Counted from the stretch's first letter, positions 1,506-21,981 are shown. The stretch is DNA of 36,857 nucleotides from a bacterium (GCA_024277725.1 JAJRUP010000148.1:1-36857), one strand, 5' to 3'. The notes: generated from the letters alone by a model not told the origin. A program made the numbers and translations.

Positions 1506-1530
1506 ATAAAAAGCAGGCTATCCGGCCCGC
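1506..1530 (-). terminator. Rho-independent terminator at the end of pilR
   Basis: On the minus strand GCGGGC, a loop CGGATA and GCCTGC form a 6-bp stem with one G-T pair, followed directly by TTTTTATA. The pilR stop codon lies at the loop and second arm. This should separate pilR transcripts from the pilVW operon and its control region. Confidence 0.6.
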
Positions 1531-4440: not shown

Positions 4441-4457
4441 GCTTCCTTCCGGAACCG

Positions 4458-5713: not shown

Positions 5714-5732
5714 CCTCGGCCCTTTTGTCGTT

Positions 5733-6203
5733 TTACTGTTCCGTAACAACCATTTTATTGAAAACATCATTCCCCTCCCTGTCCTTCCCCGTAATTGTAA
5801 TCGCATTCCCAATTTGTAACAGGCCGATCTGTCCGTTCCCAGCCGTACCGACGACCCAAAGGGGAACTTTGTTACTCCACGGCGAGGTTTCTCCGGCACG
5901 GGCAGCAACATAGGTTGCCGCTACACCGGCCGCTTTCAGGGCTGCATTATTCATATCGCCGCTCGGCACGGAACCGTCATAATTTGTATCCACCTCGATC
6001 ATTCCGGACGGACCGGAAAAAGCGGATTGCAGCCAGAACTGCAATTCAGCCTCAGCAGCCCCCGCCGCCCCCTCAATCACCCCACGCCGTGATTGTTCCT
6101 GAAAACCTGTATACCCCGGGACCGCCACGGCAGACAAAATGGCGATGATCGCCACAACGATCATCATCTCAATCAAGGTAAATCCTTGCTCCCCGTGCGG
6201 CAT
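5733..6203 (-). CDS. Second pilin, full-length paralogue of the major pilin
   Basis: The 156-residue prepilin has leader MPHGEQG, then Phe8-TLIE (Glu12) and the helix MMIVVAIIAILSAVAVPGYTGF. It aligns with the neighbouring PilA along its whole length: FQE.SR.G, a DTNxDG loop at 72-77, ATY...R, TSPWS and a Gly-Gln-Ile-based strand. It is therefore a tandem duplicate that has diverged in the surface region. The start at 6203 has a purine-rich GGAGGGTGGAG ahead of it; the longer upstream frame runs through the pilA terminator and into pilA. The terminator between the two genes would keep its expression below that of PilA. Role as alternative fibre subunit or minor pilin cannot be told from sequence. 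Confidence 0.86.
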   Translation of the reverse strand: MPHGEQGFTLIEMMIVVAIIAILSAVAVPGYTGFQEQSRRGVIEGAAGAAEAELQFWLQSAFSGPSGMIEVDTNYDGSVPSGDMNNAALKAAGVAATYVAARAGETSPWSNKVPLWVVGTAGNGQIGLLQIGNAITITGKDREGNDVFNKMVVTEQ

Positions 6204-6221
6204 TCTTCTCCACCCTCCGGA

Positions 6222-6260
6222 ACAAAAAACAGGGGCGGACCGGAAAAACCGGCCCACCCC
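6222..6260 (-). terminator. Strong rho-independent terminator after pilA
   Basis: On the minus strand GGGGTGGGCCGG, loop TTTTT, and CCGGTCCGCCCC form a fully paired 12-bp stem (two G-T pairs), followed by TGTTTTTTG. It lies 23 nt after the pilA stop and before the next pilin gene. It should stop most pilA transcripts and let a minority read into the two downstream pilins. Confidence 0.88.
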
Positions 6261-6283
6261 TCGATCATGAGGAATACCACAGA

Positions 6284-6763
6284 TCAGTCGGCACTGACCG
6301 TCTTGGTGTACAGAACAGCACCGCTGCTGTCCGCAGCACGGATCGTGACACTGTTTCCGGACTGCGTGAGCGCAATCTGACCGGCTTTGGCCGATGAGGA
6401 TGCTATCCACAAATCAGCGGTACTCCAGGGGGATGTGTCGCCCGCAGCATTACGCATGGAAATATATGTCGTAGCTACGGCACCGTTCAGAGCCGAATCC
6501 GTAGCGTCCCCCGTACCCACAACTCCATCGCCGTTCGTATCCACCTCCACCAGTGAGTCATTCGGATTTAACGAAGCGCTCAGCCACCCCTGGATCTCCG
6601 CTGCAGCGTTCGAGGCCCCTCCTATGATCGCTCCCTTTCTGGACTTCTCCTGGAAACCGATGTAACCGGGAATGGCCACAGCGGCCAGGATCCCGATGAT
6701 CGCCACAACGATCATCAATTCGATCAGGGTAAAACCGCTTTCGCTCTTCTTGATAGTCATCAT
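6284..6763 (-). CDS. pilA: Major type IV pilin PilA
   Basis: The 159-residue prepilin has a ten-residue leader MMTIKKSESG, cleavage before Phe11 (FTLIE, Glu15) and the classical helix LMIVVAIIGILAAVAIPGYIGFQ that packs in the pilus core. The globular part is rich in Ser, Thr and Ala and contains DTNGDGVVGTGD at 75-86, which resembles a DxDxDG calcium-binding loop. No disulfide loop is present. AGGAG six bases before the first of two ATGs sets the start. It has its own sigma-54 promoter and long leader upstream and a strong terminator downstream, as expected for the most abundant pilin. The Ser/Thr-rich surface and the glycosyltransferase cluster directly upstream make it a candidate glycoprotein; that is an inference. 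Confidence 0.92.
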   Translation of the reverse strand: MMTIKKSESGFTLIELMIVVAIIGILAAVAIPGYIGFQEKSRKGAIIGGASNAAAEIQGWLSASLNPNDSLVEVDTNGDGVVGTGDATDSALNGAVATTYISMRNAAGDTSPWSTADLWIASSSAKAGQIALTQSGNSVTIRAADSSGAVLYTKTVSAD

Positions 6764-6803
6764 TTCTCACTCCTTCTGCTGTTAATATTTATAAACGAGC
6801 AAT

Positions 6804-6851: not shown

Positions 6852-6879
6852 CAATAATCTCCTGTTGGGATATGGTATT

Positions 6880-6895
6880 TGCAACAACCATGCCG
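6880..6895 (-). promoter_or_regulatory. Sigma-54 (-24/-12) promoter of pilA
   Basis: The minus strand reads CGGCATG-GTTG-TTGCA, matching TGGCACG-N4-TTGCW at all but two positions, with exact GG-N10-GC spacing. Expected start site is near 6870, giving a 5' untranslated region of about 105 nt. PilA is the classical target of the PilS/PilR pair. Confidence 0.78.
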
Positions 6896-7092
6896 AATTA
6901 AAACCTTTTTTGAATGAATTCTCTAACAATCAGTAATTGCTGCGTTTTTCGCCTCATACCATCCGTTTCCGGGCTACAGTCTCGCATTTGTCGCAGGACT
7001 ATTTGGGCCGATTTTTGTGCCGTCATTATCAGAGAAAAACGTTTCACCATATTATTTATCAATGAAATCAATGAGATATGATGTTGACATAA

Positions 7093-7122: not shown

Positions 7123-7192
7123 CCTTCGGCTTTTTCCATTCCGGAAAATTTTGAGGAGATTATTATCCGTTTTCTTTCAGTATCCCCGTTCC

Positions 7193-8818
7193 CTAATCAA
7201 TTGCGTTCCTTTTCTGATTCTGAATCTCGTATATTTTCTCACATTTCAGCAACGCGTCATGCGCTGATTGATAGTCCGGCTTCAGTCGGACCGCCTGACG
7301 GAATTGTTCTATCGCTTTGTTAATATTACCTTCCTGCCAAAAGAGACGGCCCAGATTATAATGTGCCCTTGCCATTGCCGGATCAATAGACAAAGCCACA
7401 GTATAAAAAAACTCCGCATCTTTGTTGTTCCCTTGACTTCCCCGTATAATCCCCAAAAGATTATATACATTGGCCAGACGCGTTTGGTATTGCAAAGCCT
7501 GGAAAAGGTGTTGAGCGGCCTGCTTGTTGTCTCCTATTCTAAAAAAATACTCTCCTAATTTGGCATGCGCCACATAATTATTGTTTGTAGCGGAAGCAGC
7601 ATAGCTAAAAAGAGTAGAACCGTTTTTCCAGTATCCTAATTGATTCCATGACAAAAGCATATACATCATGACAATGATTGCAACAAAACTTTTCAAGAGA
7701 CTTTTCATGCATGCAGTCCTGCCGGCCGTATCACCTGCGAACCATGTCAATATCACAAAGAGACCGACCAGCGAGAGGTAAGTATAACGATCCGCAAAGG
7801 CCTGATTCCCGACCTGTACCAGCCCGATTACGGGGATGAGCATCACGATATACCATAGCCAACCGAAAAGAAAATAAGGGCGCTTTTGCCTCATCTTCAC
7901 TGCAGCAATCGTTACAAAGAGAAGAAAGAACGCAGCAACAAGGATCTCGACGGAGGAAAAGGCCGCCCCAGAACGTGGATAGAATACAGCAAGATTTTGT
8001 GGAAAAAACATCTTCCGGATGTATACGAAATAGCCGGCAAGGGCATTTGTTAAACGATGGGAAAAAGGATCCTGTGCCAGACTCATGACCGCTTTCCCCT
8101 GATTCTGTGCCATTACTGTCAGCAGACTGCTGACTGCAGAGAGAGCAAAAAACGGAATTTTCTCAAAGCTTGAACTCTTCGTAAACCGCTTCAAAGGCCA
8201 GAAATCAAGCAACAGCATCAACAACGGTAGAGTGACTGCCATCGGTTTTGACATGAGGGCAAAAGTGAAGAGAAGTATTGTCAGACTATATCGGGCGATC
8301 TGCTTTTCCCTGCAGCAATACCCATGATAAGCAATCAGAGTTAGGAGACTCCAGAATGCGCAAAGAAGATCTTTCCTTTCTGCAATCCACGCAACGGATT
8401 CAACATGCAGGGGGTGAACGGCAAACAGCATCGCCACAATGGCGCTCTTACATAGTTCACCCGTCATCCCTTCGAAGAGCCGGAAGAGGAGGAGTACATT
8501 CAGGAGATGCAGAAGGAGATTGATAAAATGGTGCCCTCTGGGATCGAGACCAAAGACCCGGTAGTCCAGCATATGCGAAAGCCATGTCAATGGATGCCAA
8601 TTGGCTTCATAGAATGAAGTAAATGCCCATCGAATATCATTGCATGTCATCCCTTGCTGTATATGGGGATTCTCATACACATACACATCATCATCATAAT
8701 TGACAAATCCATTTGAGAGTGACCGCCAGAAAACAATGATGGTAAGTAAGCTCAGCAATAAGACTATAAAACTATGCGGACGGAGACCACAATATCCCGG
8801 TACATTTTTCTTGCTCAT
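7193..8818 (-). CDS. TMTC-like GT-C membrane glycosyltransferase with TPR repeats (A)
   Basis: The 541-residue protein has about ten membrane helices followed by roughly three TPR repeats (from about residue 410). Near the start it carries an acidic loop FVNYDDDVYVYENP (Asp42-Asp44) after the first helix, then WHPLTWLSHMLD, HPLHVESVAWIAERKD (135-150), KPMAVTLP and ADRYTYLSLVG. These match a widespread bacterial TPR-protein family with the layout of eukaryotic TMTC O-mannosyltransferases, where the first-loop acidic residues are catalytic and the sugar comes from a polyprenyl-phosphate donor. The ATG at 8818 follows GGAAGG at 7 nt; a GTG 15 nt upstream is less likely. It is the gene nearest to pilA. 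Acceptor and sugar are unknown. Confidence 0.72.
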   Translation of the reverse strand: MSKKNVPGYCGLRPHSFIVLLLSLLTIIVFWRSLSNGFVNYDDDVYVYENPHIQQGMTCNDIRWAFTSFYEANWHPLTWLSHMLDYRVFGLDPRGHHFINLLLHLLNVLLLFRLFEGMTGELCKSAIVAMLFAVHPLHVESVAWIAERKDLLCAFWSLLTLIAYHGYCCREKQIARYSLTILLFTFALMSKPMAVTLPLLMLLLDFWPLKRFTKSSSFEKIPFFALSAVSSLLTVMAQNQGKAVMSLAQDPFSHRLTNALAGYFVYIRKMFFPQNLAVFYPRSGAAFSSVEILVAAFFLLFVTIAAVKMRQKRPYFLFGWLWYIVMLIPVIGLVQVGNQAFADRYTYLSLVGLFVILTWFAGDTAGRTACMKSLLKSFVAIIVMMYMLLSWNQLGYWKNGSTLFSYAASATNNNYVAHAKLGEYFFRIGDNKQAAQHLFQALQYQTRLANVYNLLGIIRGSQGNNKDAEFFYTVALSIDPAMARAHYNLGRLFWQEGNINKAIEQFRQAVRLKPDYQSAHDALLKCEKIYEIQNQKRNAID

Positions 8819-8840
8819 GTTTACGCCTTCCACCGGCTAC

Positions 8841-11540
8841 TCACTCAGTAAAATCGGAAGTGCTATGCCGGGATGGAGCCATTTTCCGGTCAGACTCCAG
8901 GTAGGTTCCGACATACCGTCTCAGGGCATTCAACGCCGGTTCAATCTTCTTATCCCTGGTACGATTGGGGTTTGCCTTCACCGCCTTTTCGAGAAAAACC
9001 AAGGCATTTTCATAGTTCTCAACTTTGTTGTAATAAAACCGCCAGAGCCGAAGTGCGATTTGGAAATTATCCGGGTCGATTTGGAGAATACTCCGTCCGG
9101 TCCGGATCGCCTTTGCCCGGTACGGATATCCCACCGCCTCGTAGAGGTCGTAGAGCTTCAGGAGGAGCTTCAAGTCCACGGAATTCTTATTTATGGCCGA
9201 TTCGTAGGTGCTGATCGCCTCTTTTACCCTCCCGAGTTTTACAAAGAGTTCGCCTTTTGCCACTGTTGCACCCGGATCATCTCCTTCCGCTACAAAGCGG
9301 TTCGATTTTTCCTGCAGATCCCGCATCTTCTTCAGTGCGGAGAGCCGGTCGGTGAAGGACTTATTACCTGGGTTCTGCGATACAAGTTCCTTTTCGAGTC
9401 GCATAGCTTCCTCGAAATCGAGCCCCTGTGAAAATACATCCACGGAAGTTTCAAGACACACATCGGAAGAACTCCCCTTCTCTCCGGTAAGACCTTCCGT
9501 CACCTTTAGAGCTTCCGAATACTTCCCTTGCTTCAGGAACGCCTTGGCAAGTAGGCACCGGGTCTCACAAGAGATATCTCCTGCGGCCAAGGCGGAACGT
9601 AGCCTCCTTTCAGCCTCTCTGTTATTTCCGGCGTCGAGATAGAGTTCGCCGTACAGACGATCGGCCTCCATCTCCTCCGCCTGATGACCGCCCTTTTCCA
9701 GGGCATCCAGTTTTTGTTGGAGCCGTTCCGCCCAACCGATTTTTTCCGGGACCCCTTTCAGAAAATCGTAAGATTCGAGGTCATCTCCAGCCAGTCGGAG
9801 CGCCTCACGGTACTCCTTTGCAGCCTGTTGAAACTTGAGTTCCTTGACGAGGACCTCTGCCATGTCATAATGAAATTCCGACCGGTCCGGGTGGAGAGAC
9901 AGGGCGCTCTCCATGGCCTCTTCAGCCTCATCAAGCCTCCCTTCTTCCAGATAGATTTTTGCAATATTCGGAAGATGCCCCCCCCCCTCATAGTCCGGTT
10001 GAACCTGCAGGTAATATTGGAGCGCTTTTTTATTTTCGCTCCTCATTAAGGCAAAATACCCCGCATTCATAAGGGCCATCTGGTCATGGGGATCAAGCTC
10101 CAGCGATTTTTCCGTTTCTTTCTCTCCCTGTTTGTATGCCCCCTGTTTGAAAAGAATCACGGCACGAATGGCAAAAACCTTTGAATCCCGGTAGAGTTTT
10201 GGATAAACCGCCTTTTCCAGTTCGCGCCACGCCGTCTGTTCAAGATGGACGAGATGGTAGGCGTGACCGCGGAAAAAGTGATTCACCGGATTTTCCGGGT
10301 CATGTCTCAGCCCTTCCGCCGTCAGGGCAAAGGTGTCCAACCAGTCCCGGTTACGGTCGACCGTTCGAACAAAATAGAAGGAACCGACAAGAAAACCGGA
10401 CAAAAACAACAGGAAAACCTGTGTACGTAGCCGATAGACCCTGTCCGCCAGGAGTCCCCCCAGCAGGCAGAAACCATAGGAAGGAAGATAAAGGTAATGT
10501 TCCGCCATGAGCATATGGTGCGGGATGATCTGCATTACCGGCAGAAGAGTAATAAAAAAGAACCAGACTGCAAAGGTGACAAGCCGGTGACGGCGCATCA
10601 CCAGAAAGGAGAACAACAAGAGGCCCAGGATCAGCGCCATGGATAACAGCACGGAAACATCGAGAAAGGAATGATAAAGAGGGGTCATCCGGTAATCGAA
10701 GCGGAGCACTACCGGAAAGAGAAGTTTCTTCACGTAGGCGGCTACAACAGTGAAGACGGTTGTAAAATTGGAGACCGGGTCTCCGCCCCACCACTTGATC
10801 CCTTTCGTCGTCACCATTCCGGAGGCATGTTCCAGGAAGAGAATGATATAAAGATAGCCGGCCAAGAGAAGAGCGGAGAACAGGATCACCCACTTGAAGT
10901 GCTGGAGGTTTTTCCGAAGGGATCGGCAAAAGAGCACTCCCGTCGGGACGGAAGAATCCCGTTCCTCATGTATGTCCCGAAGTATCTCGTAGGCAAAAAT
11001 CAGAAATGGGAGCGTGATCGCCATCTCCTTGGCCGAGATACCCAGAAGGTAACAAAGGACCGCACCCACATAGCAGCGTGTTCCTCCGGTCTCCCGTCCC
11101 TTCAGATAGGCCAGGAACCCCAATAGATAAAAGAGAGCGGAAAGGATGTCCCTGCGCCCCGAGAGGTAACTGACCGCCTCGGTGTGGATCGGATGAAGTG
11201 CGAAAGCGAAAGCTGTTACGAAAGACATTATATAGTTTCCGGTCAGACGTCTGGTCATCCACAGGACAACGAGGACCGTCAAGGTGTTGTAGAGTAAGTT
11301 CGACAGATGGTACCCGATCGGATTGAGCCCCCAGATGGCATAATCGACGGCATAAGAGAAGGTCCGGACCCACCGGTAGGTCAGAAGCCCGATGTTCCAG
11401 AAGGAGTGAATCGCCGGGTTCTTCTGAATCAAAACCATGTCATCGAGGACGAAACCACCAAAAATAGAGTTGAAATAAACAGCACTGGAAAGAATAATGA
11501 CAAACAAGATGAGGTACCGAGTGTATTTACGGTTCGTCAT
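8841..11540 (-). CDS. TMTC-like GT-C membrane glycosyltransferase with long TPR domain (B)
   Basis: The 899-residue protein has an N-terminal multi-span membrane part (to about residue 410) and a long C-terminal helical TPR array. Key motifs are FVLDD (Asp33-Asp34), GYHLSNLLYN, HPIHTEAVSYLSGRRD (116-131), KEMAITLP and AEHYLYLPSYG. The HP.HTEAV...GRxD and LYLPS motifs are shared with eukaryotic TMTC1-4 (CAZy GT105), which transfer mannose from dolichyl-phosphate-mannose to Ser/Thr. It would act in the inner membrane with the active site facing the periplasm. The ATG at 11540 is chosen; a TTG six bases upstream has better Shine-Dalgarno spacing. It is a clear paralogue of the next gene upstream. 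Function in pilin or surface-protein glycosylation is an inference. Confidence 0.72.
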   Translation of the reverse strand: MTNRKYTRYLILFVIILSSAVYFNSIFGGFVLDDMVLIQKNPAIHSFWNIGLLTYRWVRTFSYAVDYAIWGLNPIGYHLSNLLYNTLTVLVVLWMTRRLTGNYIMSFVTAFAFALHPIHTEAVSYLSGRRDILSALFYLLGFLAYLKGRETGGTRCYVGAVLCYLLGISAKEMAITLPFLIFAYEILRDIHEERDSSVPTGVLFCRSLRKNLQHFKWVILFSALLLAGYLYIILFLEHASGMVTTKGIKWWGGDPVSNFTTVFTVVAAYVKKLLFPVVLRFDYRMTPLYHSFLDVSVLLSMALILGLLLFSFLVMRRHRLVTFAVWFFFITLLPVMQIIPHHMLMAEHYLYLPSYGFCLLGGLLADRVYRLRTQVFLLFLSGFLVGSFYFVRTVDRNRDWLDTFALTAEGLRHDPENPVNHFFRGHAYHLVHLEQTAWRELEKAVYPKLYRDSKVFAIRAVILFKQGAYKQGEKETEKSLELDPHDQMALMNAGYFALMRSENKKALQYYLQVQPDYEGGGHLPNIAKIYLEEGRLDEAEEAMESALSLHPDRSEFHYDMAEVLVKELKFQQAAKEYREALRLAGDDLESYDFLKGVPEKIGWAERLQQKLDALEKGGHQAEEMEADRLYGELYLDAGNNREAERRLRSALAAGDISCETRCLLAKAFLKQGKYSEALKVTEGLTGEKGSSSDVCLETSVDVFSQGLDFEEAMRLEKELVSQNPGNKSFTDRLSALKKMRDLQEKSNRFVAEGDDPGATVAKGELFVKLGRVKEAISTYESAINKNSVDLKLLLKLYDLYEAVGYPYRAKAIRTGRSILQIDPDNFQIALRLWRFYYNKVENYENALVFLEKAVKANPNRTRDKKIEPALNALRRYVGTYLESDRKMAPSRHSTSDFTE

Positions 11541-11609
11541 GACCAAGGTTTCCTTTGCCGGCTTTTTCGCTTCGGTCCCCGAATCTTTTTACGCAAGCAT
11601 GAACTATCG

Positions 11610-12128
11610 TTATTCCACGATCGCTGAAAACTTAAGGCCTGTTCTGGCTGCATATTGTCGATACATACTTTTGAGATCATCCACAACCTTTTGGAGAGTT
11701 TGTGCATCCACCTGCGCAGGATTCAAGGCAAGGGATCTCTGAAAAAACCGGAGCGCTTCGGGCAGATCATGGACTTTTTTCCAGTACAGATATCCTAATT
11801 GCGTGTACGATTCTGCATCTTCCGGGAAATATATTAATGTTTGACGGTAGGCCCGAATTGCATCTCCCAGGTAAGGCTCTCCCATTAAAGCATATATCTT
11901 CCCGATTCGCCGGAGGACGGTCCGGTCTTTCCCGGCAGTTTCTTGCAAGCCAAGGAGAATCACCGCAGCCTTGTCATTATATCCGAAATCAACGAGTATA
12001 TCCGCCCACTCCAGCATTACCGCCGGACTGTTTGTGCCCTCCTTAGACCCCTTCCTGACACGGGACATCTTCTTGTAAACCTTCCTGAATGACACACTGT
12101 CCATTCCCAAATCGACCGCCCGATCAAA
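11610..12128 (-). pseudogene. C-terminal TPR part of TMTC-like gene C, cut off by an in-frame TAA
   Basis: The frame continues without shift from the gene at 12129-14312 across one TAA (12131-12129). The protein reads ...GRAIS, stop, FDRAVDLGMDS..., which is a single TPR helix pair interrupted in the middle. It contains about three TPR motifs and ends like paralogue B (a TPR ...ALRFF.RSLALNP followed by a long helix). Restored, the gene would be about 900 codons, the same as paralogue B. Re-initiation would have to use TTG at 12110 or ATG at 12104, neither with a clear ribosome binding site. It may be a decayed 3' end, a product of readthrough, or a sequencing error. Confidence 0.7.
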
Positions 12129-14312
12129 TTAGGATATGGCACGACCAAAATCCATGTCAGCACCATAGAGTCGGCCGAGATGATAATGAAACTCAGCGTT
12201 CCGGTCCTGTTGCTCAACGGCCTCTTTCATGTATTGAATGGCTTGATGGTACTCCTTCTTCTTCTCATACAACGTTGCCATCAGAGAATAAACTGCCGCA
12301 GAGACATCACCTGATGCCAGAAGCGGTTCGAGCAGTTCATAGGCGTTCCCATACCGGCCGATCTTAGAATAGGCTTCAGCCAGCAGAAGCAGACCGTTTC
12401 TGTCGTCTGGATTTACCTTGAGAATGTTTTCCGCACGCTGAAAGTGGACTGATTCAGAGCGAATCGTTTCTTCCCGGTTAGTAATCTCTGCCGAAAGATC
12501 CGTGCGAACTCTCGCGAACATCGAATATGCCTTTTCCGCCGGTCCGAATTCTCTCAACCATTCGTAACACCTGCCCAGGTTTCGGAGCAGGTTTTCATCC
12601 TGCGGCAAGTATCGAAGGAGTTTTCGGCTCTCCAAAATAATCCGCCTCGCAACACGATCCGCCTCTTCGTTATTCCACTGTGATTGGTAGATTCGAAAGA
12701 TCTGCTGCAATGCCGGGAGAAAGTAGTGTCCGGATTTGATTTTCTCGAAATAGGACAAGGCCTCTTCCTGATTCCTCATGGAGGAATAGAGACACCCCAG
12801 CACAAAATCGGCCAGGGGTGTTTCCGCCATCTTGATCGCCTTCTCTTCAAGACGGATTGCTTTCCGGTATTCTCCCCTCCTGTAGTGTATAAATCCTCTG
12901 TAAGCAACAGCTTGGGCAAAAGGTTTTTCTCCCTCCGCTGCCTGTCGGAATTCTCTTAAGGCATTTTCGTAGAGAAAGGCCTTCATGTAAGTCATTCCCA
13001 ACAATAAGTGTACCCGCTGATTTTTCGGGAAGACATGGAGATCGTCTCGGTAGATCGTGACATTGTTCTTCCAATCACGGTTCCGTTCCAAAGTTCGAAT
13101 TGAGAAAAAGGAAACGAGGAGTACAATCAGGACCAGAAATAGAGGAATCTTTTTGGGGTCTGTAGTGACGAGATGTTCATAGAAAACACCCACGAGGAGA
13201 CAAAAACCTAAAGAGGGAAGATAAAGAGCATGTTCAGCGACCAAGTCATGGTGAGGAACAATCTGCAATACGGGCAGAAGTGTTACAAAGTAAAGAAAGA
13301 TGGAGAAGGCGGCTACTTTATTTTTCCGGATACAGATCAATACAAAAAAGAGCATCAAGCCGAGAATCAACCATGCCAAAAGCACCCTCCCGTCCAAGAC
13401 TGATCGAATCAAAGGAAAAGAAAAATAATCCGCAACCAGCACAACAGGGAAAAGAGTCTTTTTGATATAGTGCAACAGGACGTACGAAACCGTCAACAAG
13501 TTCGAGAGGATTCCTCCCCCCCACCATTCAATCCCTTTTGCGGATACCATCGAGGAAGCATGCCGCAAGATAACGTAATAATAGATCGTGAGGGGAATGG
13601 AAAGCAGGAGGAAAATATAGAACCAGGAAAATTCTTTCCCCACCCTCTTGATACTACGAACAAGATCCTGGATATAACGGCTGCTGAATGGGCGATTTGT
13701 GGATACAAAGCGGGTGATGACATCGTATCCAAAAAGCAGGAGCGGGAAAGAGGCCGCCATCTCCTTGGTCAAGAGCGACGGCACGTAGCATGCAAAGACG
13801 GCATATAAATCCCGTTGCCTGCCCTGATCCCGGTAGGCAAGAAAGAATTTGAAGCCTGACAAATAAAAGAGCGTAAAGAGCACATCCCGGCGCCCGGAAA
13901 GATAACTCACAGCCTCCGTATGCACGGGATGGACGGCGAACAGGCACGCGACCCAGAAAGCCGATCCGTAATTACGGAACATCCTTCGTGAAATCGCATA
14001 GACCAGAAGGCTGTTCAGAACATGGATGAAGATGTTAGTGAGGTGATATCCGACGGGGTTTAGCCCCCAGAAGAAATAATCGAATGTATACGAGATCGTT
14101 CGGAGAGGGCGATAATCATGGAGGAAAATATCTCCAATGTTCAGCAGACTTCTGATCCGGAGATTCCCTGCGATCAACGTCCGATCGTCCATGACAAAAC
14201 CATTGTGCAGGGTGTTGATGTAAACCAGGACGCTCAATGCACAAATTACGACAATGGCGAGGCTTCTTTGAGTTCGAGTATCGTCCCTTGGATACAAATT
14301 TTGCTCCGGCAT
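12129..14312 (-). CDS. TMTC-like GT-C membrane glycosyltransferase (C), prematurely stopped
   Basis: The 727-residue product keeps the whole membrane part and most of the TPR array. Motifs: FVMDD (Asp42-Asp43), GYHLTNIFIH, HPVHTEAVSYLSGRRD (128-143), KEMAASFP, the HASSMVSAKGIEWWGG loop, and AEHALYLPSLG. It is closely similar to paralogue B over its length, so the pair arose by tandem duplication. Translation ends at a TAA inside a TPR motif, removing about 170 residues. The membrane catalytic part may still work, since the lost region is probably for substrate binding. The ATG at 14312 has a weak AGGGAT ahead of it. It follows the upstream glycosyltransferase gene by 8 nt, so it is in the same operon. 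Confidence 0.72.
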   Translation of the reverse strand: MPEQNLYPRDDTRTQRSLAIVVICALSVLVYINTLHNGFVMDDRTLIAGNLRIRSLLNIGDIFLHDYRPLRTISYTFDYFFWGLNPVGYHLTNIFIHVLNSLLVYAISRRMFRNYGSAFWVACLFAVHPVHTEAVSYLSGRRDVLFTLFYLSGFKFFLAYRDQGRQRDLYAVFACYVPSLLTKEMAASFPLLLFGYDVITRFVSTNRPFSSRYIQDLVRSIKRVGKEFSWFYIFLLLSIPLTIYYYVILRHASSMVSAKGIEWWGGGILSNLLTVSYVLLHYIKKTLFPVVLVADYFSFPLIRSVLDGRVLLAWLILGLMLFFVLICIRKNKVAAFSIFLYFVTLLPVLQIVPHHDLVAEHALYLPSLGFCLLVGVFYEHLVTTDPKKIPLFLVLIVLLVSFFSIRTLERNRDWKNNVTIYRDDLHVFPKNQRVHLLLGMTYMKAFLYENALREFRQAAEGEKPFAQAVAYRGFIHYRRGEYRKAIRLEEKAIKMAETPLADFVLGCLYSSMRNQEEALSYFEKIKSGHYFLPALQQIFRIYQSQWNNEEADRVARRIILESRKLLRYLPQDENLLRNLGRCYEWLREFGPAEKAYSMFARVRTDLSAEITNREETIRSESVHFQRAENILKVNPDDRNGLLLLAEAYSKIGRYGNAYELLEPLLASGDVSAAVYSLMATLYEKKKEYHQAIQYMKEAVEQQDRNAEFHYHLGRLYGADMDFGRAIS

Positions 14313-14320
14313 TTTTATCC

Positions 14321-15451
14321 CTATTGATCTTTCATCAATAGTTTCAGATATTTCCTGCTCATTACTTCTGCTGAAACAAGTTGGAAATCATTGTTGCCCG
14401 CTGCATGATCACCATGAAGGATTTCATCAATGATGCGAGCCAGTCCCGTGATATCTTCCGGATCAACGAAATGAAGGGTCGAAAAATGATCTGCAAGTTC
14501 GATTATACCCGAGTTCTTCGATGCAATAACATGCATGTCGTGGAAGAGCGCTTCCAAATAAACCAGGCCGAAACTTTCATAGAGTGACGGCATGCAGAAG
14601 ATACTGCATTTACGATAATATTCATTCATGGAAGACGGGGCCAATCGTCCGAGAAACACAACTTGCTCTTGAAGACCGAGAGTCTTCGTCATTCTGCTTA
14701 TTCGTTTTAGGTTTCTGTCTTTTCCCGCCACATAACACTTGATCAAAGGGTATCGGCTCCGAAGAATCTGGATAGCCCGGAGCAGAGCGGGCAGCCCTTT
14801 CCTGTAAAAATTCCCCCCCGCGAAGAATATGCTATACTTCTCTTCCGGAACTTGAGTTTTTTTCAGGGGTCTCAGGATAATGCCATTATGTATAACATCG
14901 ATCTTCCGATCGAGTTGATAATGTTTCATCAACATGTCCCTGCAGTACATAGAAACAGTCACCAGTTGTGTCATCTTGCCGTATGCCTTACGTTCCAGCA
15001 TATACATACACTTATAATAGATAGACCTCTTCGGCCAGTCCGGATAATACCGTATGTTCTCCCGGTCAACCCTGCCGAACATTGCGGCATAGAAATCATG
15101 AATTATCCCAAGGGTTTCATTCTTTCGACGGAAGAAAAGTCCTTCTCTCGCGTCCATAAAAATCACCTTGGAGGATACAGGAAGGTCGTTATCCACAAAA
15201 TAGCGGTTGATCTTCATGGAGAAAGAGACCCATCGGTGACCGGTAATGTCTAAGGGGTTTTTCTTGACAGTCCCGATTGAAACCTCTTTTTTTTTGCAAT
15301 CTATTTCCTCGCCCTCCGGACAGATCACCAGGACATTAAACGAAGCAGATAATTTTCGAAGGAGTGCACGCGCCAACGTTCCGACACCGCTTTTAATATT
15401 GCGGAGCTGATTGGTGACGAGGATAATATTTTTCTTCTCTTTAACAGCCAT
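14321..15451 (-). CDS. Family 4 glycosyltransferase
   Basis: The 376-residue protein has the GT-B two-lobe plan of CAZy GT4. The N-terminal lobe starts with a strand and a GVGTLARALL turn (acceptor side). The C-terminal lobe has VIHNGI, the FFAGGNFYRKGLPALLRAI motif that opens the nucleotide-binding lobe, and the E-x7-E motif ESFGLVYLEAL that binds the nucleotide-sugar. It is a retaining enzyme that adds a sugar to a lipid-linked or soluble glycan on the cytoplasmic side. GGAAG six bases before the ATG supports the start. It overlaps the upstream GT2 gene by 11 nt. Donor and acceptor cannot be deduced. Confidence 0.83.
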   Translation of the reverse strand: MAVKEKKNIILVTNQLRNIKSGVGTLARALLRKLSASFNVLVICPEGEEIDCKKKEVSIGTVKKNPLDITGHRWVSFSMKINRYFVDNDLPVSSKVIFMDAREGLFFRRKNETLGIIHDFYAAMFGRVDRENIRYYPDWPKRSIYYKCMYMLERKAYGKMTQLVTVSMYCRDMLMKHYQLDRKIDVIHNGIILRPLKKTQVPEEKYSIFFAGGNFYRKGLPALLRAIQILRSRYPLIKCYVAGKDRNLKRISRMTKTLGLQEQVVFLGRLAPSSMNEYYRKCSIFCMPSLYESFGLVYLEALFHDMHVIASKNSGIIELADHFSTLHFVDPEDITGLARIIDEILHGDHAAGNNDFQLVSAEVMSRKYLKLLMKDQ

Positions 15452-16376
15452 TGTATTCTTCCGGACTTCGGGAGGATCTCGGGACCTGATGGTGGATGTG
15501 CCATGTCAGGGCATTCCTGATGGCGGTCACAATTTCGACGCGTCCATGCAGAAGTGCCTGGACACATCGGTAGAGTAGACTCGCTGCCAACCAGCCAAAG
15601 GCAGGCAGCCAAAATTTGAACGGAAGATGCTTTCGGATGAAGAGTATCTTGTTTCTTGTTTTGTAGTAGGCAATTGTCCGGTTATAGTCACCTCCACTGG
15701 ATTGCGACACCTTGTGCCATATTACGGATCGAGGGTTAACTACGATACGATAGCCTGCCTTCCCGGCTCGATAACACCAGTCATCTTCCTCCCCATAGAG
15801 AAAAAAAGACTCATCCATAAGACCGATGCATTCGATGACTTCCCGCCTGATCATCAATGCGCATCCCGTGACGCTATCCACCTCCCTTAGCTCGGTTGCG
15901 GCACTCCTGTTTTTTTGGAACTTTCCGCTTCGGCCATGATAAAAAATCCAGTTAATCAGACTCCCTTCAGACCAGATTCTCTCCGGTTGGTCATAATAAA
16001 GAATCTTCGGCCCGGCAATACCTACACCCGGTTTGAAGGCAGCGAGGAGCTCCTGGAGAAAATCAGGCGATACGACCGTGTCATTATTCAGCAGAAGGAT
16101 GTAATCCGCTCCATGATCGAGGGCATATCGGATGCCGACATTGTTGCCCCCTGCGAACCCGAGATTTTCTTCATTCCGGATCAATACGACACGGGGGTCG
16201 TCTGCAACAATCCCTGCTGGCTCTTCACAAAGAATTTCCTCGGAACCATTGTCAATCAAGATGATCTTGAAATCCGGTTGTGCAACTGTTCGAAGTGATC
16301 GCAGACACTCGACTGTATCTTGCTTCCCGTTATAGTTCAATATAATGATGTATATCGACACAGGCATAAAGCGCAT
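15441..16376 (-). CDS. Family 2 glycosyltransferase (rhamnosyltransferase-like)
   Basis: The 311-residue protein is a GT-A inverting glycosyltransferase. It shows IIILNYNGKQDTVECLRSL at the N-terminus, IDNGSEE, ENLGFAGGNNVG, the metal-binding NND of LLLNNDTVVSPDFL (the DXD equivalent), CALMIRREV and the ED motif in GEEDDWCYRA. This pattern is common in enzymes annotated as rhamnosyl- or galactofuranosyltransferases of O-antigen clusters. A hydrophobic C-terminal stretch may hold it to the membrane. The start could be at 16376 or the ATG at 16367; neither has a clear ribosome binding site. It lies in the glycosyltransferase operon. Confidence 0.84.
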   Translation of the reverse strand: MRFMPVSIYIIILNYNGKQDTVECLRSLRTVAQPDFKIILIDNGSEEILCEEPAGIVADDPRVVLIRNEENLGFAGGNNVGIRYALDHGADYILLLNNDTVVSPDFLQELLAAFKPGVGIAGPKILYYDQPERIWSEGSLINWIFYHGRSGKFQKNRSAATELREVDSVTGCALMIRREVIECIGLMDESFFLYGEEDDWCYRAGKAGYRIVVNPRSVIWHKVSQSSGGDYNRTIAYYKTRNKILFIRKHLPFKFWLPAFGWLAASLLYRCVQALLHGRVEIVTAIRNALTWHIHHQVPRSSRSPEEYNGC

Positions 16377-16403
16377 CCAGTTTCGATGTCTATATCGAAT
16401 GCG

Positions 16404-17513
16404 TCATGATACAGATAGAAGGGCCGTAAGTCTCCGGCACAGGTCCGAAACCGACTCATTGATAACTTCGAGAAGACTGCAATCCACAAGAAGTTCGGTT
16501 TGATCTCTACATTGATCAATGAACTGATGGAGTTTCATTTTATGAATTGCAGGTACTCTCCTCAAGGTCGTCCCCCCCGGCAGCTCCCGCATTGCAGGCG
16601 TATCAAGGGTTAATAACGGTCTGCTGCAGGCCAGCGCCTGGAAGACCTTGTTCGGGATTACCCGTTGCGCTTTTTCCGTATCTCCGAAAATCCCGAGGCA
16701 GAGATCGGCAGCAGCAATTTCCTCGGGAAGTTTTTCATAGGGGACCCAGTCGATGAATTCGACGTTCCTAAGTTGCAGCTTTGCCACCAATGCATGGATC
16801 TCGTCCGACAACTGTCCCCGCCCGATAATCCTGAAACAAATCGACGGGTCATCCTCCAGCTCCTTTGCGGCATGAAGGATGTAGCCTATGCCGTGCAGTG
16901 GGATGAACTTGCCGTAAAATAGAACGCGGAAGAGTCCGTCGTTTCTGTCCGGTTTCTCCATGGGAAAGAAAATATCCTCATCCGCGCCGACGAAGACCCG
17001 GACGAACTTTTTACGATCTATCCCGAGCAAATCGGATATGTAATCTATGTGGGTGTTCGTGTCGAGCACAACTAGATCCGCAAGTCGGAGCGACCACCGA
17101 TCGACCTGAAAGAGACTCCGTGCGATGATGGAACCTTCAGGGAAGATCCCGCGGTCAATCACGAGGGTGTCGTAGAGCGACACCAGCGGGTTGAAAATAA
17201 GAGGACGCCTTTTGAAGAGGAGCAGCAAACGTGCGAGAAAGATATCCATCTGTCCGATGTATCCGACCATCAGGCAATCAAAGTCCCCTGCCCGGAAAAA
17301 CCGAACGGAAAGAACCAGATAGGCATAGAAGAGCCGGATAGCGACAACCAGAAGCGATCCTGCGGAGAGGAATTTGCCGGTTTTGTCCTCCTTGCGCTCC
17401 CAGAATGGAACGTGGCATTCTACCACCTCGATCCCGCTGCGGCGCAACCCCTTTATCATAATCCGGTTCCGGGGGTAGTCTTTCTCATAGGTTCCGAAAT
17501 AGCATACTTTCAT
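16404..17513 (-). CDS. Family 4 glycosyltransferase
   Basis: The 369-residue protein has a GT-B layout: N-terminal MKVCYFGTYEKDYPRN with an early hydrophobic, possibly membrane-touching stretch (LLVVAIRLFYAYLVLSVRFF, about 54-73), then VFVGADEDIFFP, FRVLFYGKFIPLHGIGYILHAA and a C-terminal lobe with VIPNKVFQALACSRPLLTLDTPA. The pattern fits glycosyltransferases of the GT4 group in surface polysaccharide clusters. GAGG ahead of the ATG supports the start. It lies 27 nt upstream of the GT2 gene and 26 nt downstream of the next GT4 gene. The usual E-x7-E is only partly kept, so donor specificity may differ. Confidence 0.8.
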   Translation of the reverse strand: MKVCYFGTYEKDYPRNRIMIKGLRRSGIEVVECHVPFWERKEDKTGKFLSAGSLLVVAIRLFYAYLVLSVRFFRAGDFDCLMVGYIGQMDIFLARLLLLFKRRPLIFNPLVSLYDTLVIDRGIFPEGSIIARSLFQVDRWSLRLADLVVLDTNTHIDYISDLLGIDRKKFVRVFVGADEDIFFPMEKPDRNDGLFRVLFYGKFIPLHGIGYILHAAKELEDDPSICFRIIGRGQLSDEIHALVAKLQLRNVEFIDWVPYEKLPEEIAAADLCLGIFGDTEKAQRVIPNKVFQALACSRPLLTLDTPAMRELPGGTTLRRVPAIHKMKLHQFIDQCRDQTELLVDCSLLEVINESVSDLCRRLTALLSVS

Positions 17514-17539
17514 AATACCTCGGTGATTCAGACGTGCCT

Positions 17540-18628
17540 TTAATGGACATATTCCCGGAGAAATGCCTCGAAGCGAGATGCGGACTTCTCCCAGGTAAAT
17601 TCCAGTATGCGTTCTCGCCCAAGCTTCGCTAAAGAGATCCGTCGCTCGTCAGAACTGAGCAATGCCAATGCGTTCTCTGCAAGTTGATCAGGTCTTCGAG
17701 ATGGTGACAGCAAGGCAGTTTCGGCGTGGATGGCATAGTCCTGTACACCACCATTATCGGTCGAAACCACTGCATTCCCGCAGGCCATGGCTTCCACTGC
17801 CGGTAAGTGCCACCCTTCCGTCCAACTGGGGCAAATATAGATAGAACTATGATTATAGATATCTTCAATCAGTACTTTTTGTGGAGGATCCTTGACATAT
17901 TGTATCCAGGAAGGTGCGTGGGACGGCCCCCGGTCCACTCCAAAAAGGATTGCCGAAATACCGGGCATTTTTTCCTTGATCAAATTCAGGCACTGGAGCC
18001 CATCACGAAACCCTTTCCATTCCATCTTGGAATATAACATGCAGATCCGGGCAGGCCGCTCTTCAATGGGTTGGGTGAGCCTGTAGATATCGAGGTTGAT
18101 ACCGTTCGGAATATGGACGACATCTTCTACATTGAATTCTTCTGCGATCTTCAAAAGCCATTTCGCAATCACAATCTTGTGTAGCGGCAAACTCCAAGTT
18201 GCATCCACCCGGTCCTTCGGCCCGTCCCATGTCTCGTAATGCTGAATAAGATAGAACTTTTCACCTTTTGCAGGAGGATAGCCGGCAACATATTCTGCCG
18301 TATCCCAGGCAGTGGCAACAACGGCGTCTGCATCGGGTACATAACATGTATCCAGCACCGGAACGTAAAGAAGCCGAACCCGCGGATCCACCGGATGCCA
18401 AGAGATTCCACGGGGATGGGTCCAGCGATCGCGCATCCAACGGATGAAGCGTCGCCCACGATCGGCGAAACTGTAGGGAGTCGGCCCGGGATGGTTGGGC
18501 CTGGATGCGGCATGCGCTACAGTAACTTCGTGACCGCGGGAAACCAGTCGGTTAGCATATTCATAAACAACCCGGTAGCCGCCACGAGGTTTCCATCCAT
18601 ATCCCGGAAGTACAAAAGTGATCCTCAT
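17540..18628 (-). CDS. Family 4 glycosyltransferase
   Basis: The 362-residue protein begins MRITFVLPGYGWKPRGGYRVVYEYANRL, with the glycine-rich N-terminal loop seen in GT4 enzymes. The C-terminal lobe has HIPNGINLDIY, a strand-turn ARICMLYSKMEWKG, and the sugar-nucleotide motif EGWHLPAVEAMACG. Its ATG overlaps the upstream flippase stop as ATGA, so translation is coupled. The longer upstream open frame overlaps the flippase gene and is rejected. It is cytoplasmic and probably adds one sugar to the glycan that the flippase exports. Specificity is unknown. Confidence 0.85.
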   Translation of the reverse strand: MRITFVLPGYGWKPRGGYRVVYEYANRLVSRGHEVTVAHAASRPNHPGPTPYSFADRGRRFIRWMRDRWTHPRGISWHPVDPRVRLLYVPVLDTCYVPDADAVVATAWDTAEYVAGYPPAKGEKFYLIQHYETWDGPKDRVDATWSLPLHKIVIAKWLLKIAEEFNVEDVVHIPNGINLDIYRLTQPIEERPARICMLYSKMEWKGFRDGLQCLNLIKEKMPGISAILFGVDRGPSHAPSWIQYVKDPPQKVLIEDIYNHSSIYICPSWTEGWHLPAVEAMACGNAVVSTDNGGVQDYAIHAETALLSPSRRPDQLAENALALLSSDERRISLAKLGRERILEFTWEKSASRFEAFLREYVH

Positions 18629-20142
18629 CTGATCCCCTGGCCAAAAACAGGACGCCACGTCCCCTCCAGCCATGCCAAAACAAAAAGACCCGTTATATAG
18701 AAAAACGAGAAAACAACAATTTTCAATGCTGCGTTTATTGTCGGTTGAGTGATTCCGACCATACGGTTTGAAATGATTATCCCTGCACCCGCAATGATGA
18801 TCGCCAGTGTTAAACTCTTGCAGGGGATGCGCCATACAATATAGTTTTTTGAAGAAAACCATATCAGGAAGGTATATAGTGCATAACTGAAGAGTGTTGT
18901 ATAACCGGCGGCAAGATATCCATATCGTGGGACCAACAGTATATTTAAGACTAAATTCGTAATTGCGCACACTCCAATCCATTTCAGCATGATGGAGGGA
19001 TGTTCCAGTAATTCCATCCCCTTGTGCCCCAACATGGATACTTGGAAAAGAATCTGTCCGGCCAAGACCGGTACAAGAATAGGATAACCTTCACGAAAAG
19101 ATCCGCCTAAAACTAAGGTGAACAAATCGTGCGCCCCGATGTAAGTTATACTTAAAAGACCGATTCCTGCCCAAAGATACCACCGGGTCATCATGGAAAT
19201 CGTCTCTTCAATTTTCCCCCGGTTTCTGCCCTCCCACATATGCATAATAATTGGGAAAGCCGCTAAAGTCACGGGAGAGCTTATCAGTCCTACCACACCG
19301 GTAATCAACGTATAATTCGCAGAATAAATTCCTACAGATGTGCTTCCTTGGAACGCTTGCAAAACATAACGATCACCTACGTTCAGCAATTGCATCGAAA
19401 AAAACCATAAAACCATGGGAATGCCATAGCGCGCAAAACGCCGCACATCCGTCTCGCGATAAAAAGAATTATCGAATCCGCCGACTTTCTTTGAAATTGT
19501 GAATATAAAAAACGGCAATAATATTGCCAATCCCAAAGCCTGCCCTAAGACAAGGAGTGCCGGATTTCTTCCTATAAGCAATATCAGAATGAGAGAAATA
19601 GCAAATTGTAATAAAGATCGAATGATCTCGAAGAATCGATACCCCCAGGGATCGAGGCTGGCAGCCATAATAGGCAACATGAGTGAATAAAGGCTTTGAG
19701 TCAACAAAAGAGCACCGGCAGCCACCCCCATGTACCCCCCCCAGACATGACTCAGAAAACCGGAGAGACCAATGCCCACGATGGACGCTGCCAAACCGAC
19801 CAGGAGTAATAAAAGCATTAAAGTAGCACGGTATGTCTCCAGTCTACCCTGTTGCTGATACTCACTGAAATATCTTCCGATCGGTTGAGCTCCCCATTCG
19901 CTGAGAATCACACACACGGGAATGACGATAGAAACAACCAAACTATACATTCCATACGCCTCAGGAACGAACATGCGCGTAAACAGAACAGGACTGACAA
20001 TTGCAATGATCGCAGGTAGCGACTTTGCAGATAAATAACGCAAAGTATCCGTAAGAAAACGATGCATGGGATGACCGAGCTTAGAGGGCCGTGAAGCTTC
20101 GAACATTGAAGACAGAGAAAAATATTTCATATATGGCCCCAT
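18625..20142 (-). CDS. Oligosaccharide flippase (Wzx/MATE-type membrane protein)
   Basis: The protein of up to 505 residues is almost wholly hydrophobic, with about 12-14 predicted helices and the N-terminal pattern SLPAIIAIVSPVLFTRMFVPEAYGMYSL typical of polysaccharide biosynthesis flippases. It would move an undecaprenyl-linked glycan across the inner membrane. The stop overlaps the next GT4 start (ATGA). The start is uncertain: ATGs at 20142, 20130 and 20067 all lack a clear ribosome binding site, and the last gives a protein starting MHRFLTDTLRYLSAKSLP. By eye this gene is richer in A and T than its neighbours, as is common in surface-glycan clusters that move between strains. Confidence 0.82.
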   Translation of the reverse strand: MGPYMKYFSLSSMFEASRPSKLGHPMHRFLTDTLRYLSAKSLPAIIAIVSPVLFTRMFVPEAYGMYSLVVSIVIPVCVILSEWGAQPIGRYFSEYQQQGRLETYRATLMLLLLLVGLAASIVGIGLSGFLSHVWGGYMGVAAGALLLTQSLYSLMLPIMAASLDPWGYRFFEIIRSLLQFAISLILILLIGRNPALLVLGQALGLAILLPFFIFTISKKVGGFDNSFYRETDVRRFARYGIPMVLWFFSMQLLNVGDRYVLQAFQGSTSVGIYSANYTLITGVVGLISSPVTLAAFPIIMHMWEGRNRGKIEETISMMTRWYLWAGIGLLSITYIGAHDLFTLVLGGSFREGYPILVPVLAGQILFQVSMLGHKGMELLEHPSIMLKWIGVCAITNLVLNILLVPRYGYLAAGYTTLFSYALYTFLIWFSSKNYIVWRIPCKSLTLAIIIAGAGIIISNRMVGITQPTINAALKIVVFSFFYITGLFVLAWLEGTWRPVFGQGIR

Positions 20143-20177
20143 GGGTCTTATTGTAGCTGTTCTTGGCGTGATAACTT

Positions 20178-21122
20178 CTAAAGTATTTTTTTAGAAATGA
20201 TTGAAGGATCTTCCCGTTTCTTGTACGTATGAACAGAGTGGATCAGCATCTCCCCCAAAAGTCCCATGGAAATGAACTGGATGCCGAGGATGATCGCGAC
20301 CCAGCCAAAGACCATGAGCGGTCGTACATGCATGGGAAGACCGATCAGCCATTGGAGAATGAACCAGGCACTCAGGAACACCCCGGGAATGAGGCAGAAA
20401 AGCCCGATCCCTCCGAAGAGATGGAGCGGACGCTTCAGGTAACGTGTCAGGAACAGAACCGTGAGCAGGTCCAGGAACCCCCGGGTGAACCGCTCCATAC
20501 CGTACTTGGAAGCTCCGTGTATGCGCGGATGATGGTCCACCTTGATTTCCGTTACGCGGAACCCCTTCCAGCGGGCCAGAACCGGGACGAAGCGGTGCAG
20601 CTCCCCGTAGAGCAGGATGTTTTCCACGACCTCGCGCCGGTAACATTTGAATCCGCAGTTGAAATCGTGGAGTTTGATGCCGGTCATCAGGGAAACCGCG
20701 CGATTGAAGATCCGGGAGGGAAGCGTCTTCCCGATCGGATCGTGCCGTTTGAACTTCCAGCCGGAGACCAGGTCGTACCCCGCCTCCAGTTTTTCGAGAA
20801 ACCGGGGGATCTCCTTGGGATCATCCTGGAGATCGGCATCCATTGTGAAAATGATCTCTCCCTGAGCATGTTCAAAACCGACCGACAAGGCAACGGATTT
20901 CCCGAAATTGTCCCGCAATTGTATCACCTTGATTCTCCCATCCTTTTCATGCAGGGCCTCGAGTTTTCCCATGGACCCGTCTCGACTCCCATCGTCCACA
21001 AAAATAAGCTCGTAGTTGTTCTGCAGGGAATCGAGTACCGTCTGGATGCCGGAAGAAAGCGCTTTGAGGCTTTCTTCCTCGTCATAGACAGGAATGACGA
21101 CGGAGATCATCGGTTTCGGCAT
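20178..21122 (-). CDS. Polyprenyl-phosphate sugar synthase (DPM1/GtrB-like GT2)
   Basis: The 314-residue protein has a GT-A domain with SVVIPVYDEEESL, FVDDGSRDGS, the DADLQDDP metal-binding motif, NCGFKCYRREV and HGASKYGMERF, followed by two C-terminal membrane helices (about 233-257 and 268-292). This is the plan of enzymes that transfer mannose or glucose from a nucleotide to a polyprenyl phosphate, such as dolichol-phosphate mannose synthase and GtrB/ArnC. The product would be the donor for GT-C enzymes in the periplasm. Three TMTC-like GT-C proteins follow in the same strand, which supports a joint pathway. It is the first gene of the cluster, with a plausible sigma-70 promoter upstream. 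Which sugar is used is not visible. Confidence 0.87.
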   Translation of the reverse strand: MPKPMISVVIPVYDEEESLKALSSGIQTVLDSLQNNYELIFVDDGSRDGSMGKLEALHEKDGRIKVIQLRDNFGKSVALSVGFEHAQGEIIFTMDADLQDDPKEIPRFLEKLEAGYDLVSGWKFKRHDPIGKTLPSRIFNRAVSLMTGIKLHDFNCGFKCYRREVVENILLYGELHRFVPVLARWKGFRVTEIKVDHHPRIHGASKYGMERFTRGFLDLLTVLFLTRYLKRPLHLFGGIGLFCLIPGVFLSAWFILQWLIGLPMHVRPLMVFGWVAIILGIQFISMGLLGEMLIHSVHTYKKREDPSIISKKIL

Positions 21123-21291: not shown

Positions 21292-21699
21292 TCAGGTCAC
21301 CTGTCCGTTTTCATAACGCCAGAATTCCTGCGGAGAGAGAATATCTATCTCAAATCGACTCTTTAGTACAAGCAAGTCCTTGTCACCGGTAATGATGCAT
21401 CGGCACTTCCCTGCCTTGGCGGTCCCAATGACAAGATCATCATCCGGGTCCCTGCAGACAGGCGTCTCCAAAGCAGCCGGAACGACAACCGTCATATAAC
21501 TTCGCAGCAATGAGGAAGCAGCCTCAACCTCCGGATGTGGAATCTTGATTTTTGAAATGAGCTTGTCCGAAAACTCATTCAGGATGAAATCCGATGTAAC
21601 GAGATCATGCAGCTGGGCACAATGTTCCACTAATTCCGAACAGGCGCCGCGGGAGATAAAAGAGGCAATCAGGACATTCGTATCCAGGACAATTTTCAT
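21292..21699 (-). CDS. vapC: PIN-domain toxin (VapC-like ribonuclease)
   Basis: The 135-residue protein has a PIN nuclease fold: MKIVLDTNVLIASF with Asp6, Glu42 in LNEF, the acidic group in CRDPDDDLVIGTAKAG (Asp84-Asp88) and Asp106 in ITGDKDLL. These form the metal-binding acidic centre of PIN ribonucleases. It belongs to the group annotated as putative toxin component of the PIN family. Its ATG overlaps the upstream antitoxin stop as ATGA, a usual arrangement that couples the two. When freed from antitoxin it should cleave RNA; the target is unknown. Confidence 0.85.
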   Translation of the reverse strand: MKIVLDTNVLIASFISRGACSELVEHCAQLHDLVTSDFILNEFSDKLISKIKIPHPEVEAASSLLRSYMTVVVPAALETPVCRDPDDDLVIGTAKAGKCRCIITGDKDLLVLKSRFEIDILSPQEFWRYENGQVT

Positions 21700-21914
21700 G
21701 ACAGGCGGTCAAAAACATCCTGGTCGGTATATACCCCTTCTTGTTGTGCCTGGCCAAGCATTCGCCGCCTCAGTGAACGAAAACGACCAATAAAGAGGTA
21801 GTTTTTGATCGATTTTCGGATGATTTCACTGCGGGAAAGATCTTCCGTTTCCGCGAGCTGATCCAACTCCCGTTTGATTTCTTCCGGTAGACTGATTGTA
21901 ATCGTCTGTCGCAT
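21696..21914 (-). CDS. vapB: Ribbon-helix-helix antitoxin (VapB/CopG-like)
   Basis: The 72-residue protein starts MRQTITISLPEEIKRELDQLAETEDLSRSEIIRKSIKNYL, the classical ribbon-helix-helix DNA-binding fold with the N-terminal strand and the SRSEIIRKS turn. The C-terminal half (about 45-72) should wrap around the toxin. The ATG at 21914 has AGAGG six bases upstream; the longer open frame runs into the cyclase gene and is rejected. It overlaps vapC by 4 nt. A near-consensus promoter with an operator palindrome over its -10 lies just upstream, which fits self-repression by the complex. Confidence 0.85.
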   Translation of the reverse strand: MRQTITISLPEEIKRELDQLAETEDLSRSEIIRKSIKNYLFIGRFRSLRRRMLGQAQQEGVYTDQDVFDRLS

Positions 21915-21941
21915 CGGCAACCTCTGTGGAAAAATACCGTA

Positions 21942-21980
21942 CCTGTAATAGAATATAATACAGGGTCGGGCATTTGTCAA
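21942..21980 (-). promoter_or_regulatory. vapBC promoter with overlapping operator palindrome
   Basis: On the minus strand TTGACA (21980-21975), a 17-bp spacer and TATATT (21957-21952) form a near-perfect sigma-70 promoter beginning just after the cyclase stop codon. A 23-bp imperfect palindrome at 21942-21964 (CCTGTA ... TACAGG, with matching inner bases) covers the -10 and start site. The antitoxin is a ribbon-helix-helix protein, so binding there would block transcription. Confidence 0.75.
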
Positions 21981-21981
21981 T

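Follow-up and report, generated by a model that had tools for sequence, protein, structure and literature searches.

TMTC-like GT-C/TPR proteins encoded beside type IV pilin genes are candidate bacterial protein O-glycosyltransferases

In a 36,857-nucleotide stretch of bacterial DNA (JAJRUP010000148.1, here called the window), a one-strand gene cluster encodes a polyprenyl-phosphate sugar synthase, a flippase, four glycosyltransferases, and three TMTC-like proteins that pair a predicted GT-C membrane domain with a TPR array, and it runs up to a set of type IV pilin genes. On balance, we lean toward the reading that the TMTC-like proteins are periplasmic GT-C protein O-glycosyltransferases that use a polyprenyl-phosphate sugar, with the pilins as the likely acceptor. 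In the mechanism that we propose, the ArnC/GtrB-like synthase would charge polyprenyl phosphate with a single sugar, the flippase would turn this lipid-linked sugar outward, and the TMTC-like enzymes, facing the periplasm, would move the sugar onto Ser or Thr of exported proteins, for which the products of the neighboring type IV pilin genes are the most likely candidates. In each protein, a multi-helix membrane domain holds the catalytic Asp pair as well as a Lys and an Arg or His predicted to bind the phosphate of the donor, and the periplasmic TPR array probably grips the acceptor protein. A longer lipid-linked glycan may also be assembled at this locus, by the variable flippase and the cytosolic glycosyltransferases. 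The gene content, the predicted GT-C fold, the intact catalytic positions, the synteny in a sister species, and the recurrent adjacency to pilin and pilus genes in unrelated lineages are observed; the donor, sugar, acceptor, and linkage are inferred, as is what the TPR array does.

The host genome is a MAG of 2.92 Mb with 99.4% completeness. All of the cluster genes lie on the minus strand, from 21122 down to 7193, and they are present in the order given by an earlier sequence-only reading of this DNA, which had described a synthase, a flippase, four glycosyltransferases, and three TMTC-like proteins leading on one strand to the pilins. First in transcription order is the gene for the ArnC/GtrB/DPM1-like polyprenyl-phosphate sugar synthase (20178..21122), a GT2 protein with C-terminal membrane helices. 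Among solved structures, the protein is closest to ArnC (E 1e-51), followed by GtrB/sll0501 (E 1e-40), which bears out the DPM1/GtrB-like assignment of that reading. Using Pfam, we assigned the genes that follow to a Wzx-like flippase (Polysacc_synt; 18625..20142), a GT4 glycosyltransferase (17540..18628), a second GT4 (16404..17513), a rhamnosyltransferase-like GT2 (15441..16376), and a third GT4 (14321..15451). The listed open reading frame of the first GT4 reaches 18982 and overlaps the flippase gene; its likely start is MRITFVLPGYG near 18628. The run ends with TMTC-like copies C (11610..14312; 900 codons, with one in-frame TAA), B (8841..11546; 901 aa), and A (7193..8833; 546 aa, of the HPLHVESV...ERKD type). 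Beyond a gap 3′ of copy A, and still on the minus strand, come pilA1 (6284..6763), whose pilin is the candidate acceptor, a second type IV pilin gene, pilA2 (5733..6203), and genes for a ComP_DUS-type minor pilin (5348..5770), the prepilin peptidase PilD (4458..5216), a PilS-like sensor kinase (listed at 3097..4740, the real start probably lying downstream), and a PilR-like sigma54-dependent response regulator (1518..2900), followed by minor pilins. An Rfam search of the window gave no match.

The gap between the TMTC-like run and pilA1 measures 429 bp and contains a sigma54-like site upstream of pilA1 (TCGGCATGGTTGTTGCA, 2 mismatches; 6880..6896, minus strand). Taken alone the site is weak, as shuffling the window 100 times gave as many matches in 15 cases, which places it modestly above chance. 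Given the gap and the site together, pilA1 is probably its own transcription unit with its own promoter, and a strong intrinsic terminator on the same strand (6231..6261; 13-bp stem and T tail) follows the gene. As a separate observation, the ComP_DUS-type pilin gene and a ComEC gene (28655..31186) lie less than 26 kb apart, which suggests natural competence in the host lineage.

We inspected the three copies for the motifs that the sequence-only reading had described as shared by all of them. The first-loop DD, HPxH(T/V)E(A/S)V, and (G/E)R(R/K)D motifs are present in the membrane parts of A, B, and C, but LYLPS occurs only in B and C; copy A reads ADRYTYLS. In an alignment of the membrane parts of 266 relatives, conservation was 97%/100% for the first-loop DD, 95%/99% for H-P, 90% for E, 91% for R, and 96% for K, and each of the three copies keeps all of these positions. 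Copy B has lost two other residues that are near universal among the 266, P64 and H92. The Arg that precedes TM10 in TMTC proteins (R404 of TMTC1) is Arg in copy A (ADRY) and His in B and C (AEH.LYLPS); across the relatives this position is Arg in 80% and His in 15%. All three copies have Pfam TPR matches, and in the model of copy A the TPR helices come after the membrane part. The TAA of copy C lies at 12129..12131. Since TPR sequence runs on past this stop (RAIS*FDRAV) and the part downstream of it is also encoded by copy C of the sister species (37% identity over 89 aa), we read the stop as either a recent truncation of an ancestral frame or an assembly error.

Structure prediction and comparison support the assignment of the membrane part to the GT-C fold, as the sequence-only reading had supposed. 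AlphaFold returned confident models for copy A (pLDDT 93.8, pTM 0.92) and for the membrane part of copy B (pLDDT 91.3, pTM 0.91). The best 24 Foldseek matches of the copy B membrane model were all GT-C-type enzymes, including AglB, PglB, STT3, ArnT, Pmt4, Pmt1-Pmt2, DPY19, and EmbB, most of which modify protein. Probabilities for these 24 were 0.99 to 1.00, TM-scores 0.36 to 0.55, and E-values 1.6e-3 to 0.14, and such modest E-values are expected for remote folds. With full-length copy A, TPR structures dominated the Foldseek results, which were uninformative about the membrane part. Sequence searches of solved structures using copy C or a 58-member membrane-part profile gave only TPR matches or no significant match, and the case for GT-C membership is therefore based on the predicted fold and on the Pfam matches of relatives, 14 of 58 of which matched PMT_2, 3 of 58 PMT, and 3 of 58 TMTC_DUF1736 (E ≤ 0.01 for the last).

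The motifs that define eukaryotic TMTC1-4 are established, and full-length prokaryotic homologues have been noted, such as AMJ42_05695 of Deltaproteobacteria DG_8 (PMC7801869). These homologues have the same GT-C plus TPR architecture and belong to the same uncharacterized bacterial family as the proteins in the window. Like TMTC1-4 (CAZy GT105), our proteins have a GT-C domain with a first-loop DD and a C-terminal TPR array placed on the luminal or periplasmic side (PMC7801869). Copy C also has a match to the Pfam TMTC_DUF1736 domain, which is below threshold (18.3 bits against a cut-off of 27); A and B had no match to it. We therefore call the proteins TMTC-like and do not class them as TMTC. 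They differ from the eukaryotic cadherin O-mannosyltransferases in being bacterial, in falling below the Pfam TMTC cut-off, in being linked to pilins, and in the His that B and C carry at the conserved Arg before TM10. The prokaryotic homologues were reported with neither context nor function (PMC7801869), whereas here we found such genes linked repeatedly to type IV pilus operons.

To see which parts of the locus are kept, we turned to a comparison of the phylum that covered 8 genomes/species. Sister species G001 has a syntenic block of DXS, TlyA, UDG, the cyclase, the synthase (83% identity), the second GT4 (83%), copies C (46%) and B (64%), pilA1 (81%), and the ComP-type pilin (69%). Its locus is without copy A and without pilA2, its flippase has been swapped for a very different one (24%), and its other glycosyltransferases differ, with one GT4 kept. 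This implies that the synthase, one GT4, C, B, and pilA form the constant part of the locus, and that the genes that vary are the ones expected to determine glycan structure. The set of three copies, which had been put forward as a key feature, thus lost that standing, since the sister species has two at the locus and numbers vary freely. Other genera of the phylum have the pilA operon without TMTC-like genes, and among its other genomes, some carry TMTC-like genes that lie apart from pilA and some have pilA operons lacking them. In G004, the synthase (78% identity) and one GT4 adjoining it are conserved and no TMTC-like gene was detected, implying that the synthase and GT4 pair has another use too. 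We rejected a general link between synthase and TMTC-like genes across the phylum because synthase-like genes occur in 8/8 genomes, with or without TMTC-like genes. Between the glycan cluster and the adenylate cyclase gene, the window also holds a PIN-domain toxin and ribbon-helix-helix antitoxin pair (21292..22133), which had no counterpart at the corresponding position of the sister species, where the cyclase gene ends at 4790 and the synthase gene starts at 4898 (L041).

The strongest pilus-linked cases outside the window came from other lineages. In the bacterial family f87, around G092, pilA (..QRGFTLIELMIVVAIIGILAAIAIPLYA) lies directly upstream of a TMTC-like gene, on the same strand and less than 1 kb away, in 23 of the 57 genomes, spread across 11 genera. 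The count comes from comparing gene positions between two separate scans, and among 30 short loci, more than half showed the pilin directly. By a rough chance expectation, about 0.05 pairs would arise, and the 23 pairs were inherited together and are not independent events. Lineages unrelated to f87 repeat the arrangement. Deltaproteobacterium WY3.bin34 (L057) has the order pilB-pilT-pilC-pilS-pilR-pilA-pilA-TMTC-TMTC, in which pilA and TMTC are 219 bp apart. We also found pilA-TMTC-pilD (G010), pilin-pilin-TMTC (G135), and, in Planctomycetota M_MetaBat.109 (L063), pilB-pilB-pilC-pilS-pilR-synthase-TMTC, where the synthase gene begins 6 bp after pilR and no pilin was recognized in the locus. 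At further loci (L252, i.e., G213:C7; L081; L204/L206; and L249), TMTC-like genes lie 0.1 to 0.3 kb from pilins in convergent or divergent orientation, a weaker linkage.

We then examined how far this proximity holds across the family. TMTC-like membrane parts (called at E ≤ 1e-20) occurred in 63 of 290 sampled genomes (22%), often in many copies. Proximity was counted over 140 loci (80 named and 60 sampled), with background rates drawn from the sampled regions rather than from whole genomes. A pilin motif lay within 10 kb in 16 of the 140, and this ruled out a family-wide pilin link; pilins can be no more than one class of acceptor among others. We counted 13 pilins at 9 loci within 1 kb of TMTC-like genes, or 4.35 per 100 kb against 1.29 at 1 to 10 kb, a 3.4-fold density (3.9 expected), and none in 20 control regions. 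This statistic alone is moderate because tandem pilins are not independent. Synthase-like genes were likewise denser within 1 kb (7 against about 1.5 expected; 2.34 per 100 kb against 0.51 beyond). On a FastTree tree of the 266 membrane parts, pilin-adjacent members were scattered, with 13 changes for the 20 tips that have a pilin directly upstream and 21 changes for the 30 tips with any adjacent pilin. This pattern suggests several separate origins of adjacency, on a tree whose deep branches are weak and whose adjacency labels are lost at contig ends. The sequence-only reading had expected homologues to sit near pilins; above-chance adjacency in several lineages, sometimes with the synthase, agrees with it, but about 90% of the loci have no pilin within 10 kb. 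That reading had named a fold unrelated to GT-C and homologues with no tendency to lie near pilin or surface-protein genes as outcomes that would refute it, and neither was seen. As a whole, that interpretation was partly supported.

That most of the TMTC-like loci lie away from pilins is what one would expect if these proteins were general GT-C/TPR glycosyltransferases of periplasmic or surface proteins, with pilins as one client or a bystander. We regard this as somewhat unlikely, and it is the alternative that we take most seriously. Copy numbers that reach dozens per genome fit it, and so do two further TMTC-like genes of the host genome, which lie outside the cluster and away from pilins. 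It leaves unexplained, however, why pilins are so much denser within 1 kb and why the pilA-TMTC pair is conserved over 11 genera. The pilins had been described as Ser/Thr-rich, but S+T made up 23% of the tail in pilA1, 12% in pilin 2, and 24% in the ComP-like pilin, compared with 20 ± 5% in 72 pilins, and the S+T fraction was 0.200 for pilins adjoining TMTC-like genes and 0.196 for others. As these values are not above the norm, we dropped Ser/Thr richness as support.

The content of the cluster also resembles the three-component extracytoplasmic systems (GtrA/GtrB/Gtr*, GT136), in which a synthase, a flippase, and a GT-C transferase decorate polysaccharides (PMC11127046). The cluster holds the same three kinds of protein together, its flippase being a putative transporter of the polyprenyl-phosphate sugar. 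It could thus be such a system, or a Wzx-type surface-glycan locus that lies beside pilA by chance, and we consider this improbable. Such systems use a synthase of the ArnC/GtrB type, as is present here (PMC11127046), and the Wzx-like flippase and four cytosolic glycosyltransferases are mostly swapped in G001, as in O-antigen loci. Elsewhere, the host genome encodes four Wzy_C (polymerase/ligase-like) proteins and at least three initiating transferases, so other routes of glycan transfer exist in this organism. The cluster itself, however, has neither a polymerase nor an initiating transferase among its genes, and the linkage to pilus operons recurs at loci where no other glycan genes were detected. 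Unlike the three-component enzymes, the GT-C proteins here sit beside pilin genes and bear TPR arrays, a protein-binding repeat, which argues for a protein acceptor rather than a polysaccharide. A pilus assembly or pilin-handling factor of the TfpY or PilF/PilW-like kind, with TPRs that bind pilins and a membrane domain that is no longer enzymatic, would account for the resemblance of the TPR domains to pilus-stability proteins such as PilW, and TfpY is an example of how an accessory gene next to pilA may encode something other than a glycosyltransferase (PMC11841053), but all catalytic GT-C positions are kept in A, B, and C and across the 266 relatives, which is not expected of a pure scaffold and makes this reading very improbable.

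Thus, we return to protein O-glycosylation with pilins as the likely acceptor. Adjacency to a pilin gene is not proof of an acceptor, since the assembly factor TfpY is also encoded with pilA (PMC11841053). In Pseudomonas aeruginosa, TfpO/PilO and TfpW are pilin accessory genes encoded with the pilin, and TfpW is described as a GT-C-family arabinosyltransferase (PMC11841053). The TMTC-like genes sit with a pilin in the same way (in the window, G001, the 23 f87 genomes, L057, and G010, among others), a likeness of placement. TfpO transfers O-antigen units and TfpW arabinofuranose, which differs from what we propose here. Neither TfpO nor TfpW is known to bear a TPR array. Prokaryotic TMTC homologues were already known, and so was the role, that of TfpO and TfpW, in which we propose to place the TMTC-like family. 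A search of the open-access literature found no relevant paper joining TMTC with pilin, and the novelty of the linkage is provisional because the search covered open-access papers only.

Most of what is known about pilin glycosylation comes from TfpO, TfpW, and PglL in a small number of Proteobacteria. If the TMTC-like class acts beside pilA, pilin glycosylation would extend to poorly studied groups, and a large uncharacterized bacterial family, found in 22% of sampled genomes, would gain its first proposed function. If TfpO and TfpW are a guide, evasion of phages is a possible role. The bacterial enzymes would also offer models in which to study human TMTC enzymes and the TPR arrays that these carry. 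A wider proposal, which we hold as possible but doubtful, is that TMTC-type GT-C/TPR enzymes are a widespread, unrecognized class of bacterial protein O-glycosyltransferases, tied independently to type IV pilins in several lineages, with the eukaryotic TMTC cadherin O-mannosyltransferases as a late branch of what would be a bacterial family of glycosyltransferases for surface adhesion.

Some members of the family stood out by number or by host. The expansion was extreme in one sampled genome (G290), where a first look gave 54 candidates for the TMTC-like domain. In a lake-sediment "Proteobacteria" MAG (L047; JAPLJA010000168.1), positions 1 to 13931 hold eight consecutive one-strand open reading frames matching TMTC-like proteins, and these are, by tree distance, the closest named relatives of copies B and C. 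TMTC-like genes were also present in archaea, namely, two Woesearchaeota MAGs and Halococcus morrhuae (L050, L064, and L099).
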